Source: Microbacterium sp. ET2 (GTDB lineage Bacteria; Actinomycetota; Actinomycetes; Actinomycetales; Microbacteriaceae). Taken from it: DNA of 64,000 nucleotides. The stretch spans positions 992,001 through 1,056,000 of the forward strand of contig NZ_CP128170.1 in assembly GCF_030347395.1 (NCBI RefSeq), in the 5' to 3' direction. Of this stretch, positions 13,966 through 32,220 are shown piece by piece. Numbering within the stretch: position 1 is the first letter of the stretch; each line of letters starts with the position of its first letter. The notes below the pieces were generated by a model. It was not told the origin of the DNA. It saw nothing but the letters and a program-made list of their open reading frames with translations, and searched no databases. Both the position numbers and the translations under genes were made by a program.

Positions 13966-14815
13966 GTCCACGTTCGGCTGGTCGTCGACCCCCGGAAGGT
14001 GGGGCACACTGCAGCTGCTCGGCAATGAGCTGTCGATCCAGTTCCGGCGGTGGCGGACCTGGGCCATGCTCGGAGCGCTGGCGCTCATCCCCCTCCTCCT
14101 CGGCGTCGCCATCCGGTTCTTCGGCGGCTCGGATCCAGGCCGTGGCCCCGCATTCCTGGATCAGATCACCGGCAATGGGCTGTTCGTCGGGCTCGCCGCC
14201 CTCACCGTGGCCATCCCGCTCTTCCTCCCGCTGACCGTCAGCGTCACGGCGGGGGACGCTCTCGCCGGCGAGGCGAGCCACGGGACGCTGCGCTATCTCC
14301 TGATCGCACCGGCCGGCCGCATGCGCCTGCTCCTGGTCAAGTACCTCAGCGCCGCCGTGTTCTGCGCCGCCGCCACCCTCACCGTGGTGGCCGTCGGGTC
14401 GATCGTCGGCGCGGTCCTCTTCCCGATCGGGCCGGTCACGCTCCTGTCGGGGGCCCAGGTGTCGATCGGCGAGGGGCTGTGGCGACTCCTCGCGATCGGC
14501 GTGTACGTATCGATATCGCTCATCGGGCTGTCGGCGATCGGCCTTTTCCTCTCGACGCTGACCACGGTGCCGATCGGCGCGATGGCCGCGACGGCGATTC
14601 TCGCTGTCGCTGCACAGATCGTCGGCGCGATCCCCCAGCTCGACGCACTGCACCCCTGGCTCTTCACCGACCGATGGCTGGACTTCGGCGACCTGTTGCG
14701 CTCACCCATCGTTTGGGATTCGTTCGCCGCCAACGCGCTCTTGCAGGCCGGATACGTCGTGGTGTTCGGGGCCGCGGCGGTGGCGCGGTTCGCGACCAAA
14801 GACGTGCTGTCCTAG
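13952..14815 (+). CDS. ABC-2 type transporter permease
   Basis: This 287-residue protein has six hydrophobic segments, from LGALALIPLLLGVAIRFF to YVVVFGAAAVARF, with a short loop in GDALAGEASHGTLRYLL that is typical of ABC-2 permeases (the coupling helix region). It is the membrane partner of the upstream ATPase and ends the LolA-ATPase-permease operon. Two tandem intergenic repeat units follow. Confidence 0.87.
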   Translation: MSSRESTFGWSSTPGRWGTLQLLGNELSIQFRRWRTWAMLGALALIPLLLGVAIRFFGGSDPGRGPAFLDQITGNGLFVGLAALTVAIPLFLPLTVSVTAGDALAGEASHGTLRYLLIAPAGRMRLLLVKYLSAAVFCAAATLTVVAVGSIVGAVLFPIGPVTLLSGAQVSIGEGLWRLLAIGVYVSISLIGLSAIGLFLSTLTTVPIGAMAATAILAVAAQIVGAIPQLDALHPWLFTDRWLDFGDLLRSPIVWDSFAANALLQAGYVVVFGAAAVARFATKDVLS

Positions 14816-14830
14816 AGCCGTGCGTTGATC

Positions 14831-14884
14831 GGTCACAAAAAGGTAACGGCGAGCCCTTCCCTTCCGTTACCTCTCCGTTATAGA
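14831..14884 (+). promoter_or_regulatory. Phased-repeat promoter region, copy 1 (MtrA-like sites?)
   Basis: GGTCAC-AAAAA-GGTAAC (14831-14847) is a direct repeat with an 11-base period. CCGTTA-N5-CCGTTA (14864-14880) is the same word in inverse orientation with the same period, and GGTAACGG (14842-14849) with CCGTTACC (14864-14871) forms an 8-base inverted repeat. TATAGA follows, but no good -35 box sits 17 bases upstream, which suggests an activator. The spacing resembles MtrA response-regulator boxes in Actinobacteria; the regulator identity is a guess. Confidence 0.45.
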
Positions 14885-14994
14885 GTGCTCGCACGGTAGT
14901 TGTTTTGCTGTGGCAGCTACCGACATGTGATTGCAGGACACTCTTGGTGCAAGGGACAAGGGCCGGTCGGGAGCCTCACCGACCGGCCCTTACT
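14833..14994 (+). ncRNA. Predicted small RNA unit, copy 1 of a tandem duplication
   Basis: This unit contains phased repeats (14831-14880), a TATAGA -10-like box at 14879-14884, and a predicted transcript of about 100 bases from near 14890. The transcript can fold as a stem CGGTAGTTG/CAGCTACCG (14894-14902 with 14914-14922, one G-U), a small stem TTGCA/TGCAA (14931-14935 with 14948-14952) and an 11-base-pair terminator hairpin. No ORF with a convincing start and ribosome site was found. The unit is nearly identical to 15034-15195. No known RNA family was recognised; transcription is inferred. Confidence 0.5.
14960..14994 (+). terminator. Intrinsic terminator of repeat unit 1
   Basis: GGGCCGGTCGG (14960-14970) pairs perfectly with CCGACCGGCCC (14979-14989) around an 8-base loop, followed by TTACT. 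The stem is strong; the T-tract is weak, as is usual in high-GC Actinobacteria. Confidence 0.65.
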
Positions 14995-15033
14995 CTGTCC
15001 CGGTCCGCGTGCACGTTATGCATCGCCTGAGAA

Positions 15034-15195
15034 TCACGAAAAGGTAACGGCGAGCCCTTCCCTTCCGTTACCTTCCCGTTATAGAGTGCTCGCACGGTAG
15101 TTGTTTTGCTGTGGCAGCTACCGACATGTGATTGCAGGACACTCTTGGTGCAAGGGACAAGGGCCGGTCGGGAGCCTCTCCGACCGGCCCTTACT
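15034..15195 (+). ncRNA. Predicted small RNA unit, copy 2 of a tandem duplication
   Basis: This copy lies 201 bases after copy 1. It differs at one site in the A-rich spacer, two adjacent sites in the promoter part and one base in the terminator loop (A to T). The predicted transcript, including both upper stems, is otherwise identical. Its terminator ends 15 bases before the end of the convergent EEP gene. Function is unknown. Confidence 0.5.
15161..15195 (+). terminator. Intrinsic terminator of repeat unit 2
   Basis: This is the same 11-base-pair stem as in unit 1 (15161-15171 with 15180-15190) followed by TTACT. It may also serve the convergent gene that ends at 15205. Confidence 0.6.
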
Positions 15196-15204
15196 TGCGC
15201 CGGT

Positions 15205-16167
15205 TCACGACGAGCAGATCCCCCAGCTTCCGATCACGCCTCGGTGGTCGGACCCCGGGATGGAGAAGCTGGCCCACCCGGTCGGCACCGCGCCGCGCGC
15301 GAGCACGTGATCGATCGCCGTGAATGCCGGCACGGGCCTCTCCTGCGGCCACGTCGGCCACGGAATCGGTCCGGCCGCCTCGGCCGCGCTCCGCAGCGGT
15401 GACGCGAGCTGCCGGAACCCGGGGTGGGCATACGACGCGTTCAGGTCCCCGGCGACGATGAGCAGCTCATCCGGTGTGTCACGAATCCAGCGGTCCAGAT
15501 CGCCGATCGCCGTCCGCCAGTCGACCGGCTGACCCACCGGAGGCGGTGGATGCACCGCAGCCACCTGGACCTCTTCGCCGCCGGGCAGCGTCGCGACCGC
15601 CGTGACCTGATCGAAGACGCTCCCCGAGATGTCCTGTTCATCGTGGAGCGGGAACGCCGACAGGATGACGCTGCCCCTCACCCCACCCTCACTCGTCTCA
15701 CGGGTGCGATGCGGCAGCGCCTCGGCGAGTCCGCGCTCGTTCAGGACGGCGGCGATGTGCGCTTCGTCCGTCTCGACGAGGGCGACGATGTCGGCGTCGG
15801 CCTCAGCGATGCGCGCGGCGAGCCGGGCCGGGTCGGCGCCGGCGAACTTCGCGTTGAATGCGATGACCGTCACCGTGGAGTCCGCCGCGCAGTCCGATCC
15901 GGTGCGCAGCGGAGTGAGGGCGGGAAGTCCCGCCAGCACACCGCCGATGACGAGGATGACGGCTGCCGCCGAGGCCCGGAAGAACAGCGGAACCACAGCG
16001 AGGACGACGAGAGCGACAGCGCCCACGGGGACGAGCGCCTGCGCGACCGGGATAAACCCCCCGGCGAGGACGTCGACGTGGGGCAGCGCCACCGCCGCCC
16101 CGGCGATGAGGAGGGCGACGACCGTCCAGATCAGCCGCGACCGGCGCCGGCGTGCGGTTCTCACCAC
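15205..16167 (-). CDS. Membrane-anchored endonuclease/exonuclease/phosphatase family protein
   Basis: This 320-residue protein has three N-terminal membrane helices (about residues 12-90) and an EEP domain from about residue 98: FNAKFA, the metal-binding Glu in DIVALVETD, GDLNAS, IDHVLA and the C-terminal SDHRGVIGSW with the catalytic Asp-His pair. The domain probably faces outward, as in related actinobacterial proteins with this three-helix anchor. It may hydrolyse phosphodiester bonds in nucleic acid, phospholipid or inositol phosphate; the substrate cannot be read. Confidence 0.87.
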   Translation of the reverse strand: MVRTARRRRSRLIWTVVALLIAGAAVALPHVDVLAGGFIPVAQALVPVGAVALVVLAVVPLFFRASAAAVILVIGGVLAGLPALTPLRTGSDCAADSTVTVIAFNAKFAGADPARLAARIAEADADIVALVETDEAHIAAVLNERGLAEALPHRTRETSEGGVRGSVILSAFPLHDEQDISGSVFDQVTAVATLPGGEEVQVAAVHPPPPVGQPVDWRTAIGDLDRWIRDTPDELLIVAGDLNASYAHPGFRQLASPLRSAAEAAGPIPWPTWPQERPVPAFTAIDHVLARGAVPTGWASFSIPGSDHRGVIGSWGICSS

Positions 16168-18926: not shown

Positions 18927-20735
18927 TCAGACGCCGCCGCCTCCCCCTCCGCCCCCGCCGCCGCCGGCGGAGCCGCCCCCGCTCGACCCACCGGAGCTCG
19001 ACGACGACGCCGCCGTGGCGGACAGGCTGCTGATCCCCACCGAGAACGCCGCGGCGTTGAACCCCGTTGTGCCGACGTACCAGCCGGGGGTGTCGTCGCC
19101 GTAGTAGATCGCGAGGTGCTGGGCCCACTCCTTCTCCTGGCCGAAGACCACCGCGTACGGGAGCAGGCGTTCATAGAGGTGGAGCATCTCACGCGGGTCG
19201 CCGGTATCGACCGGGCGTCGTTCGGCACCGGTCGGCGTCTGCAGCATGCGGATCCGATCGGCCTCCGCCCACTCGATGAAGATCTTCAGGCCGGCCAGGT
19301 GGTCGCGCACCTCGGCACCCGTCGCGCTGAGCGGCTGCGTCGACACGATGGCGATCGTGGCGACCGTGAGCCCCGAGCCGAGCACGATCGGGAGGATCGG
19401 CAGGAGGGGGTCGACCGATCCGGCCAGGGCGAACACGCCGAACAGGACGATCAGCACTCCGATCAGCAGAGACACGACGATCGGCCACGCCCTCACCCGC
19501 GCCGGGACGGTGCGGTACAGACCCCTGCTCTTCAGCTCCTTCCGCCCCGCGGCGAGGATCTTCTGGGCCGTGCGGGAGAAATGGGTGTCATTGCCGCCGA
19601 ACTCGTAGATCTCGCCGGGTCGGAGGTCATCGTCGAAGAGGCCTTCCAGCAGCATCCGTCCATCGCGGTCGGCTCGGCTGGCGTCGACCAGTTCCGCCTG
19701 CAGCTTGGCACCGCCGAACCAGCGCTTCTCGCCTTCGAGGATCCGGATGCTGCCGACCACCGCCTGTTCGAGCACCTCGGCCGGGATCGCCTTCGCCGTC
19801 TTGCCGAGAAGCAGCGCGCTCTCGAGGGCGTCGATGCCGGGAGGCGGTGTGAACTCCGCGATGATCGTCGGTCGCCCCGGGGCGCCGCGCAGCGACCGGC
19901 GGTTGACCACGATCGCCGCACCGAGCATGCCGAGACCGGCGATGCCGGCCGCTCCCTGCGCCCACCCCCACCCCGACGCGAGATACGAGTCATCGAATCG
20001 GGCGAAGGTGCCCGTTTCGAATCCCACAGCGATCGTGAGCGTCTCGGTCGGCGCGAGATCCTGAGCGCCGGCGGTGACCACGGCGCCTTCCCCGCTGTCG
20101 GCCACCTCGATCGGACACGTGGTCTCGGCGCCGAACCCGCCGACGTAGCACGCCTGCGCACCGGTGAGCGCGCCGGCCAGCTCGGCCGGCACCACCAGCG
20201 TGGCCGTGACCTCGCCGAAGGGCTGGCGCCATCCGTTGCCGTTGACGTCCCAGTAGAACTCGTCGCTGGTGTCGGCGAAGACGTCGGTGACGTTTCGGAG
20301 CGTGTAGGTGAAGACGAACGTCTGGCGCCCCGAGAGGAAGCCGTCGGCACGAGAGGTGACGGTCATCCAGTCACCATCGGTCTCGACCTCGCTCGGCCGC
20401 GGGTCGCCCGCCTCATCGGTGACCGAGATCAGGTCGGGGAAGGTCGGCTGGCCGTTGTACTCGGCCGGGATGTCACGACGGATCCCGCGGTTCTGGTCTT
20501 CTGGGAAGACCGCCACGAACGTCTCGACGACGCGCAGGGTGCTGGTGTCGTCATCCTCACGGCCGAGGGTGTACTCGGCGTCCATGCTCTCGAAGACGAA
20601 GTCGTCGAGATTCCCTGACGCGACGACCGCATCGCTCGTCCCGGATGCGGGTGAGGAGACCGCGAGACCGGTGAGAACGGCGGCCCCGACCAGGGCCGCC
20701 AGCAGACGGGCGGCGATCCGACGCGTTCGCGGCAT
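18927..20735 (-). CDS. DUF2207 membrane protein with glycine-rich tail
   Basis: This 602-residue protein has a signal peptide (about residues 8-32), an extracellular beta-rich DUF2207 domain (to about 245), one membrane helix near 255-280, a cytoplasmic part, two helices in WPIVVSLLIGVLIVLFGVFALAGSV (about 415-440) and VLGSGLTVATIAIVS, and a C-terminal region ending in a Ser/Gly-rich tail with eleven consecutive Gly. This layout is that of predicted actinobacterial membrane proteins of unknown role; the Gly-rich end is typical of the family. It is a single gene. Confidence 0.85.
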   Translation of the reverse strand: MPRTRRIAARLLAALVGAAVLTGLAVSSPASGTSDAVVASGNLDDFVFESMDAEYTLGREDDDTSTLRVVETFVAVFPEDQNRGIRRDIPAEYNGQPTFPDLISVTDEAGDPRPSEVETDGDWMTVTSRADGFLSGRQTFVFTYTLRNVTDVFADTSDEFYWDVNGNGWRQPFGEVTATLVVPAELAGALTGAQACYVGGFGAETTCPIEVADSGEGAVVTAGAQDLAPTETLTIAVGFETGTFARFDDSYLASGWGWAQGAAGIAGLGMLGAAIVVNRRSLRGAPGRPTIIAEFTPPPGIDALESALLLGKTAKAIPAEVLEQAVVGSIRILEGEKRWFGGAKLQAELVDASRADRDGRMLLEGLFDDDLRPGEIYEFGGNDTHFSRTAQKILAAGRKELKSRGLYRTVPARVRAWPIVVSLLIGVLIVLFGVFALAGSVDPLLPILPIVLGSGLTVATIAIVSTQPLSATGAEVRDHLAGLKIFIEWAEADRIRMLQTPTGAERRPVDTGDPREMLHLYERLLPYAVVFGQEKEWAQHLAIYYGDDTPGWYVGTTGFNAAAFSVGISSLSATAASSSSSGGSSGGGSAGGGGGGGGGGGV

Positions 20736-20783: not shown

Positions 20784-21227
20784 GTGAACGATCGTCGCCT
20801 GGCCGTCGAGGCGTGGGAAAGCCTTTTTCGTGCGCAGCATGAGCTCTTCGCCGACCTGGGCCGCGATTTCAGCGACGCGCCGCTGCAGCAGGGCGAGTAC
20901 GACGTGCTGCTGACGGTGACCCGGGCACCTGATATGACCGCGCGACTGCGCGACATCACCCGGCTGATGCTGGTGAGTCAGCCCTCGGTCTCGCGCCTGG
21001 TCGATCGGATGGTCGCCCGGGGTTACGTCACCAAGTGCCCGGACCCCGATGATGGGCGTGGATCGCTCGTCCGGGCGACGGAGGCCGGCGCCCGCGCATT
21101 CCGCGACGTGGCACGGGTGCATGCCGCTCACATCGCCGAGCGGATGTCGGCGCTGAGCGAGGCCGAGCTCGCGCAGCTGCGCGAGCTGACCACCAAGCTC
21201 CGGATGCACGACACCCCCGTCGGGTGA
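20784..21227 (+). CDS. MarR-family transcriptional regulator
   Basis: This 147-residue winged-helix protein has QGEYDVLLTVTRAPDMTARL, recognition helix LVSQPSVSRLVDRMVARGYV and wing DDGRGSLVRATEAG, the usual MarR order. These dimers repress efflux, catabolic or stress genes and respond to small phenolic ligands. The GTG start gives the standard length. A strong terminator begins inside its last codons. The target is not evident. Confidence 0.9.
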   Translation: MNDRRLAVEAWESLFRAQHELFADLGRDFSDAPLQQGEYDVLLTVTRAPDMTARLRDITRLMLVSQPSVSRLVDRMVARGYVTKCPDPDDGRGSLVRATEAGARAFRDVARVHAAHIAERMSALSEAELAQLRELTTKLRMHDTPVG

Positions 21228-32147: not shown

Positions 32148-32220
32148 CGCGCCCGAAGGGACTCGAACCCCTAACCTTCTGATCCGTAGTCAGATGCTCT
32201 ATCCATTGAGCTACGGGCGC
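32148..32220 (-). tRNA. tRNA-Arg(ACG)
   Basis: The minus strand folds into a standard 73-base cloverleaf: acceptor GCGCCCG/CGGGCGC, D stem GCTC/GAGC, anticodon stem TCTGA/TCAGA with loop CTACGGA (anticodon ACG), and T stem AGGGG/CCCTT with TTCGAGT. CCA is not encoded. The A at position 34 is normally edited to inosine, reading CGU, CGC and CGA. No att-like duplication was seen beside it. Confidence 0.95.

Follow-up and report, generated by a model that had tools for sequence, protein, structure and literature searches.

A recently duplicated, predicted small RNA gene with MtrA-type promoter boxes in Microbacterium sp. ET2, from an RNA family apparently confined to Microbacteriaceae

The window analysed here, i.e. 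the whole 64,000-nt stretch of Microbacterium sp. ET2 DNA, raises the question of what occupies the 389-nt gap (14816-15204) between an ABC-2 permease gene, which ends at 14815, and a convergent endonuclease/exonuclease/phosphatase (EEP) gene on the minus strand (15205-16167). The gap houses two copies of a single 162-nt unit (Table 1) whose starts lie 201 nt apart and which differ at four of the 162 positions (14837, 14873, 14874 and 14978), in agreement with an earlier description made from the letters alone (hereafter the sequence-only reading). That reading had also allowed for one differing base between the start of the transcript and the terminator, and position 14978, in the terminator loop, is indeed the sole difference in what is predicted to be transcribed, as far as the terminator. 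The genome is one contig of 3.6 Mb, and the tandem pair in it is a recent local duplication. The statement that the copies fill the only large gap does not stand in the same way, because the window has seven gaps above 200 nt, four of which are larger than 389 nt; nevertheless this correction is a weak one, given that the rough gene caller behind the count misses genes.

Table 1. Positions of the features discussed, numbered from the first letter of the window
Feature	Position	Strand	Basis or remark
Unit copy 1 (promoter, RNA and terminator)	14833..14994	+	158/162 positions identical to copy 2
Unit copy 2 (promoter, RNA and terminator)	15034..15195	+	sequence comparison
Upstream inverted MtrA-type box GTTACC-TTTTT-GTGAC, copy 1	14832..14847	-	sequence
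Upstream inverted MtrA-type box, copy 2	15033..15048	-	sequence
MtrA-type box GTTACC-TCTCC-GTTATA, copy 1	14866..14882	+	overlaps predicted -10; Streptomyces consensus
MtrA-type box, copy 2	15067..15083	+	motif search; Streptomyces consensus
Predicted -10 TAGAGT	14881..14886; copy 2 15082-15087	+	sequence and alignments
Predicted sRNA copy 1	14893..14998	+	folds, covariance model, covariation; ends +/- several nt
Predicted sRNA copy 2	15094..15199	+	folds, covariance model, covariation; ends +/- several nt
Stem 1	14894..14922, arms 14894-14902 and 14914-14922; copy 2 +201	+	7/9 pairs change on both sides
Stem-1 loop UUUUGCUGUGG, nearly invariant	14903-14913; copy 2 +201	+	family alignment
Nearly invariant segment AUGUGAUUGCAGGACACUCUUGGUGCA	14925..14951; copy 2 +201	+	alignments; 3' part within hairpin 2
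Hairpin 2 CUCUUG-GUG-CAAGGG	14941..14955; copy 2 +201	+	minimum-energy folds
Intrinsic terminator hairpin, 13-nt arms	14958..14991; copy 2 15159-15192	+	9/13 pairs change on both sides
DUF2207 membrane-protein gene	18927..20735	-	relatives close to the RNA at many Microbacterium loci
MarR-family gene	20784..21227	+	relatives are the usual RNA neighbours in other genera; here 5.6 kb downstream

Each copy would give rise to an RNA of about 105 nt whose fold energy lies far below that of shuffled sequences (z of -4.27 for copy 1 and -4.69 for copy 2, with none of 200 shuffles as low). The 9-bp stem, the small hairpin and the terminator hairpin proposed by the sequence-only reading are all present, the arms of the terminator being complementary over 13 nt, and alignments across the family reveal two near-invariant elements, namely the loop UUUGCUGUGG and a segment of about 27 nt, AUGUGAUUGCAGGACACUCUUGGUGC. 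Comparison of 40 distinct family sequences shows that 97.0% of cells are paired when stem 1, hairpin 2 and the terminator are taken together, and that 16 of the 28 pairs undergo changes on both sides (95 cells). The paired fraction, the both-sided changes and the covariation score were matched by none of 500 shuffles, and slid controls give 1-4 such pairs; the count of pair types was equalled by 7 of the 500 shuffles, and one pair of stem 1 (7-31) is non-standard in 15 of the 40 sequences. Covariation is strong in both stem 1 and the terminator stem, and the signal for stem 1 is not built in, since R1, the covariance model that found the sequences, does not contain that stem. Hairpin 2, on the other hand, is almost without variation, so that covariation speaks neither for it nor against it. 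Another second hairpin (UUGCA/UGCAA) may form instead, and when it is assumed the first 46 sequences show both-sided changes in 15 of 28 pairs. A long-range pairing offered by RNAalifold in place of stem 1 was discarded, inasmuch as its pairs hardly vary and hence find no support in covariation, whereas stem 1 covaries.

These same alignments bear on whether the conserved stretch is read as protein. A small protein (e.g. one in the VIAGHSWC frame) would suit the near-invariance of the core and the open frames that extend through each copy; yet relatives differ by single-base indels in the body that put the frames out of register, which argues against a shared reading frame, and the variation follows the stems. 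A case in point is the T lost from CTCTTGG: one of the copies in the histidine-phosphatase loci often lacks it and has a shorter linker. We therefore consider a coding function very improbable, and the expectation that conservation would follow stems rather than codons holds good.

The RNA does not belong to any family that we could name. Rfam 15 gave no match to it at or above the gathering threshold, in keeping with the failure of the sequence-only reading to recognise a known family; the best hit, PtaRNA1, reaches 23.1 of 47 bits and covers mainly the terminator hairpin. The sole above-threshold Rfam match across the window is a tRNA gene at 32148-32220 on the minus strand. No report of the RNA stood out in a literature search of partial coverage, from which subscription papers mostly fell out, and the family is apparently undescribed so far. 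A BLAST search of 58 near genomes recovers the element in 34, each of them from the same genus and the genome studied here among them, and one further genome of the genus, 83% complete, gave no BLAST match. R1, which was built from 46 sequences, extends this distribution considerably: at E<=1e-3 it matches 201 of 249 Microbacteriaceae genomes and 71 of 85 genera, and at E<=1e-6 it still matches 195 of the 249, the remaining six being weak. When the model was applied to 297 genomes of the order, 33 matched, 22 of them in the family and 11 outside it. The latter score 27.8-33.0 bits, and since the terminator read on the reverse strand alone attains up to 33.1 bits, such scores are at noise level. 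Their membership was rejected on inspection, as none of the eight that were read (L202-L209) has the box or the core motif and most resemble terminators at gene ends. As far as searched, the RNA family thus appears to be confined to Microbacteriaceae.

Within these limits the counts may be conservative. In two relatives with small genomes (L234 and L235), a box-bearing promoter is followed by an altered, related RNA and a terminator that R1 missed, standing in front of a photolyase gene. A second model, R2, gave 28.7 and 26.7 bits for them, which by score alone is noise level; judged by the box, the position and shared words, both look like diverged copies of the RNA, and because R1 missed them the RNA may be commoner than counted.

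The element might also be a repeat of mobile origin without host function. Within the genus, copies do occur at several places and in tandem: nine of the 34 RNA-bearing genomes have two or more full copies, the further ones lying about 0.85-8 kb off or on another contig and having mostly diverged, and among the loci compared close tandem pairs are found only in the window and in L117. Such a pair may serve dosage or graded control, a use that the sequence-only reading had put forward. Most genomes of other genera, however, have a single R1 match each, and the covarying structure and a neighbourhood partly kept across genera are likewise at odds with a functionless repeat, so that we hold this explanation to be extremely improbable. 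A separate arrangement, in which two RNA copies flank a gene of a histidine-phosphatase cluster, was seen in L042, L005, L006, L116, L151, L087, L023 and L011, the gene in L042 being confirmed by Pfam.

The sequence-only reading had suggested looking for a conserved place beside the ABC and EEP genes. Such a position was not recovered: L118 alone has the ABC pair adjoining the RNA, and no locus has the EEP gene, in a comparison that for many loci covered 1.5 kb of flank. The L118 record, titled Planococcus sp. and possibly mislabelled, encodes proteins 73-88% identical to the ABC-transporter pair of the window and to the product of the preceding gene. The order seen more often in the various genera has the RNA between a winged-helix gene before it and a MarR gene after it, with upp in front where all four are seen. 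Of 40 distinct cross-genus loci, covered in most cases over 1.5 kb of flank, 31 have a MarR-family gene in that flank, 18 have a receiver-less winged-helix gene and nine have upp.

This arrangement lends itself to a different explanation, namely that the RNA is a cis-acting leader, an attenuator or riboswitch of the MarR-family gene whose terminator serves as expression platform and whose copies elsewhere are remnants. The 31 cross-genus loci with a MarR-family gene, mostly downstream and co-directional, would suit such a leader, as would the aptamer-like look of a covarying stem with an invariant loop next to a terminator; the nearest downstream gene is co-directional in 34 of the 40 cross-genus loci, leaving room for a cis role there. 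Nonetheless, it is convergent in the window, in 30 of the 75 distinct copies of the first set and in 6 of the 40 cross-genus loci; the RNA takes a leader's position upstream of marR in many other genera but not in the window or in many Microbacterium copies. Moved or duplicated copies retain promoter and terminator, and no antiterminator pairing appeared in the folds inspected in an unsystematic look. Convergent neighbours and intact duplications weaken the leader explanation, and we judge it distinctly unlikely. Each copy carries its own predicted promoter and intrinsic terminator and would be independent of the downstream gene.

Direct antisense pairing was considered in two forms, neither of which found support. 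Control of the MarR mRNA was put to a crude test, ignoring accessibility, in which 37 duplexes with MarR leaders were no better than shuffled ones (mean z +0.56, none below -2). Long perfect antisense targets fared similarly in 19 genomes of the genus: 25 of the 29 places that match an 11-nt complement of the loop, and 25 of the 30 for the invariant segment, are the RNA gene itself, and the 4 and 5 matches outside it compare with 16 and 4 for reversed patterns and have no gene in common.

The promoter bears on how the RNA may be controlled. The -10 consensus is TANNNT, and alignments place a predicted -10 of TAGAGT in the window and mostly of TATATT in other genera. A direct repeat GTnA(C/T)C-n5-GTnA(C/T) stands in all but one of 106 distinct copies (105 of 106), and that one is cut by a contig end; a stricter form, CGTTAYC-N4-CGTTAT, is in 97 of the 106. 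Distinct copies here are rows collapsed on a shared 120-nt stretch, a step by which some identical copies from separate genomes are merged as well (before near-identical rows were collapsed, the repeat was in 126 of 127). In the genome studied here CGTTAYC-N4-CGTTAY occurs at these two promoters only, and its reversed control not at all. Further upstream, 66 of 104 distinct promoters carry another box in inverted orientation; in the two overlapping sets the counts are 47 of 75 and 31 of 50, against 0.06 and 0.03 expected from shuffles. In rows having the inverted box, the gap between the boxes is 17-18 nt within the genus (7 of 13) and 8-10 nt in other genera (24 of 37), so that the two spacings differ by roughly one turn of the helix, as would be understandable if a pair of MtrA dimers sat on a fixed face of the DNA.

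The operator-like words singled out by the sequence-only reading fit the published site of the response regulator MtrA. In Streptomyces this site is a 17-bp direct repeat, GtnAcC-n5-GTnAcn, and the C at half-site position 4 is conserved in all sites reported there (PMC13189361); the second half-site of the RNA promoters, GTTAT, has T where that consensus has c. A fragment from a binding study of Mycobacterium tuberculosis MtrA, Rv2524c, holds TGTTATCAAATCGTTAT (PMC10609481), and the Corynebacterium glutamicum site, an 8-bp direct repeat of the (A/G)TAAC type with a 3-bp linker (PMC3353115), would cover GTTAT on the other strand. The promoter boxes accordingly fit an MtrA-type site whose second half-site is off at one position. 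An mtrA gene is present at G000:C1:2985472-2986128 (388.5 bits, cut-off 300) and is followed by a HAMP/HisKA kinase gene; the search for OmpR-type regulators in this genome returned 23 matches, MtrA and one-domain matches included, and another of these regulators might bind the box instead. In C. glutamicum, MtrA sites near the -10 go with repression and those upstream of the -35 with activation (PMC3353115), and as the box here covers the -10 we infer repression from this rule.

Other genes appear to share the site. A related motif ending in TT, which the RNA promoters do not match, has two one-mismatch sites in the genome, one upstream of an M23 peptidase gene and the other at secA and a PadR gene. 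In C. glutamicum, MtrA targets include the putative peptidase genes mepA, mepB and nlpC (PMC3353115), and under alkaline conditions mepA rises in Dietzia when mtrAB is mutated (PMC9602371). Across the family, 201 of 249 genomes have the exact motif, a set that is not identical with the 201 matched for the RNA, and several of them have more than one site; it also occurs away from the RNA and is therefore not exclusive to it across the family. Twenty motif regions were read, three of which are at M23 peptidase genes (all in one other genus) and three with the RNA or its diverged form (L232, L234 and L235), and in the other 14 there was no evident link to known MtrA targets. MtrA-type boxes before an M23 peptidase gene, or at a called gene start, were observed in L216, L217, L218 and L236.

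A competing assignment of the box is to the receiver-less winged-helix protein, which would then be a dedicated regulator of the RNA in place of MtrA. Its gene, in the flank of 18 of the 40 cross-genus loci (L047 and L071 among them), is often directly upstream of the RNA, and the protein has an OmpR/PhoB-type DNA-binding domain, a class known to bind direct repeats (PMC3353115), with a strongly conserved N-terminal part and no receiver by Pfam; domain searches yielded no family name beyond that domain. The box, however, fits published MtrA sites and is also found upstream of M23 peptidase genes. In the genome studied here the gene (G000:C1:973378-974127, L212:1373-2125) lies about 32 kb upstream of the RNA, and the protein, which at E<=1e-20 has matches in all but four of the 249 family genomes (245, five of them weak), occurs as well where no RNA was detected, so that its presence does not track that of the RNA. 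We regard this assignment as unlikely.

Taken together, these observations favour, with a probability that we put at about 0.6, a standalone small RNA directly controlled, and probably repressed, by MtrA, and recently duplicated in this genome. Conservation, covarying structure, terminator, MtrA-type boxes and the mtrA gene are computed results. Each copy would be a standalone gene for an sRNA of about 105 nt; MtrA would bind the direct repeat over the -10, often with a second, inverted box upstream, and the box so placed would bring about repression, such that the RNA would be transcribed and accumulate when MtrA is unphosphorylated. The RNA would most likely act in trans through the stem-1 loop and the AUGUGAUUGCAGGACACUCUUGGUGCA segment, either pairing with mRNAs over short stretches or binding to a protein. 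The weakest steps of the overall reading are the target and the direction of control. The complete small transcription unit of the sequence-only reading is supported as regards operator-like words, promoter, structured body, terminator and conservation of stems, and finds no support as regards a conserved place beside the ABC and EEP genes.

Such an RNA would work in the manner of the small RNAs controlled by response regulators, e.g. OmrA/OmrB and Mcr7. OmrA and OmrB of enterobacteria are related sRNAs that are encoded side by side, answer to an OmpR-type regulator and use Hfq; they belong to distant organisms and their middle parts differ, whereas the copies in the window are almost identical throughout. 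Mcr7 is a PhoP-dependent non-coding RNA of M. tuberculosis that is absent from a phoP mutant and targets tatC (PMC4038636). It is likewise an actinobacterial small RNA and marks the most prominent control site of its response regulator; as far as the two can be compared by description, PhoP is needed for Mcr7, in contrast to the repression by MtrA predicted here. The ANTAR-target RNAs are also structured actinobacterial RNAs, a few of them beside a terminator, and have been reported in Microbacterium; they are defined by two stems with hexanucleotide loops bearing A1 and G4 (PMC8164766). The stem-1 loop of 10-11 nt and the 3-nt loop of hairpin 2 in the favoured fold do not agree with this dual-hexanucleotide-loop definition, and identity with ANTAR-target RNAs was rejected for that reason. 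As for the MtrA regulon of Corynebacterium and Streptomyces, it shares with the present case the type of direct-repeat site, which M23 peptidase genes also carry here, but the targets named are protein-coding (PMC3353115, PMC13189361). The main text of PMC13189361 makes no mention of small RNA, sRNA or non-coding, and no MtrA-controlled sRNA stood out in a literature search whose coverage was partial and left subscription papers mostly outside.

These results offer a concrete connection, open to testing, from the MtrAB system of the cell envelope to control by RNA, and a small RNA present in 71 of 85 genera without an Rfam match is in itself an uncommon find. A broader picture, which we put forward tentatively as possible rather than probable, is that MtrAB has a family-wide non-coding arm, in which one ancient RNA, whose promoter is spanned by oppositely oriented MtrA dimers in constant helical phase, would capture by its invariant stretches an RNA-binding partner, or many mRNAs through short seeds, thereby tying an envelope two-component system to post-transcriptional control. 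To our knowledge actinobacteria are generally without Hfq and CsrA, and an RNA-binding partner would therefore be new. For Microbacteriaceae, which include many soil and plant bacteria, the near-invariant stretches may thus provide a route to an RNA partner in bacteria that generally do without the usual RNA chaperones.
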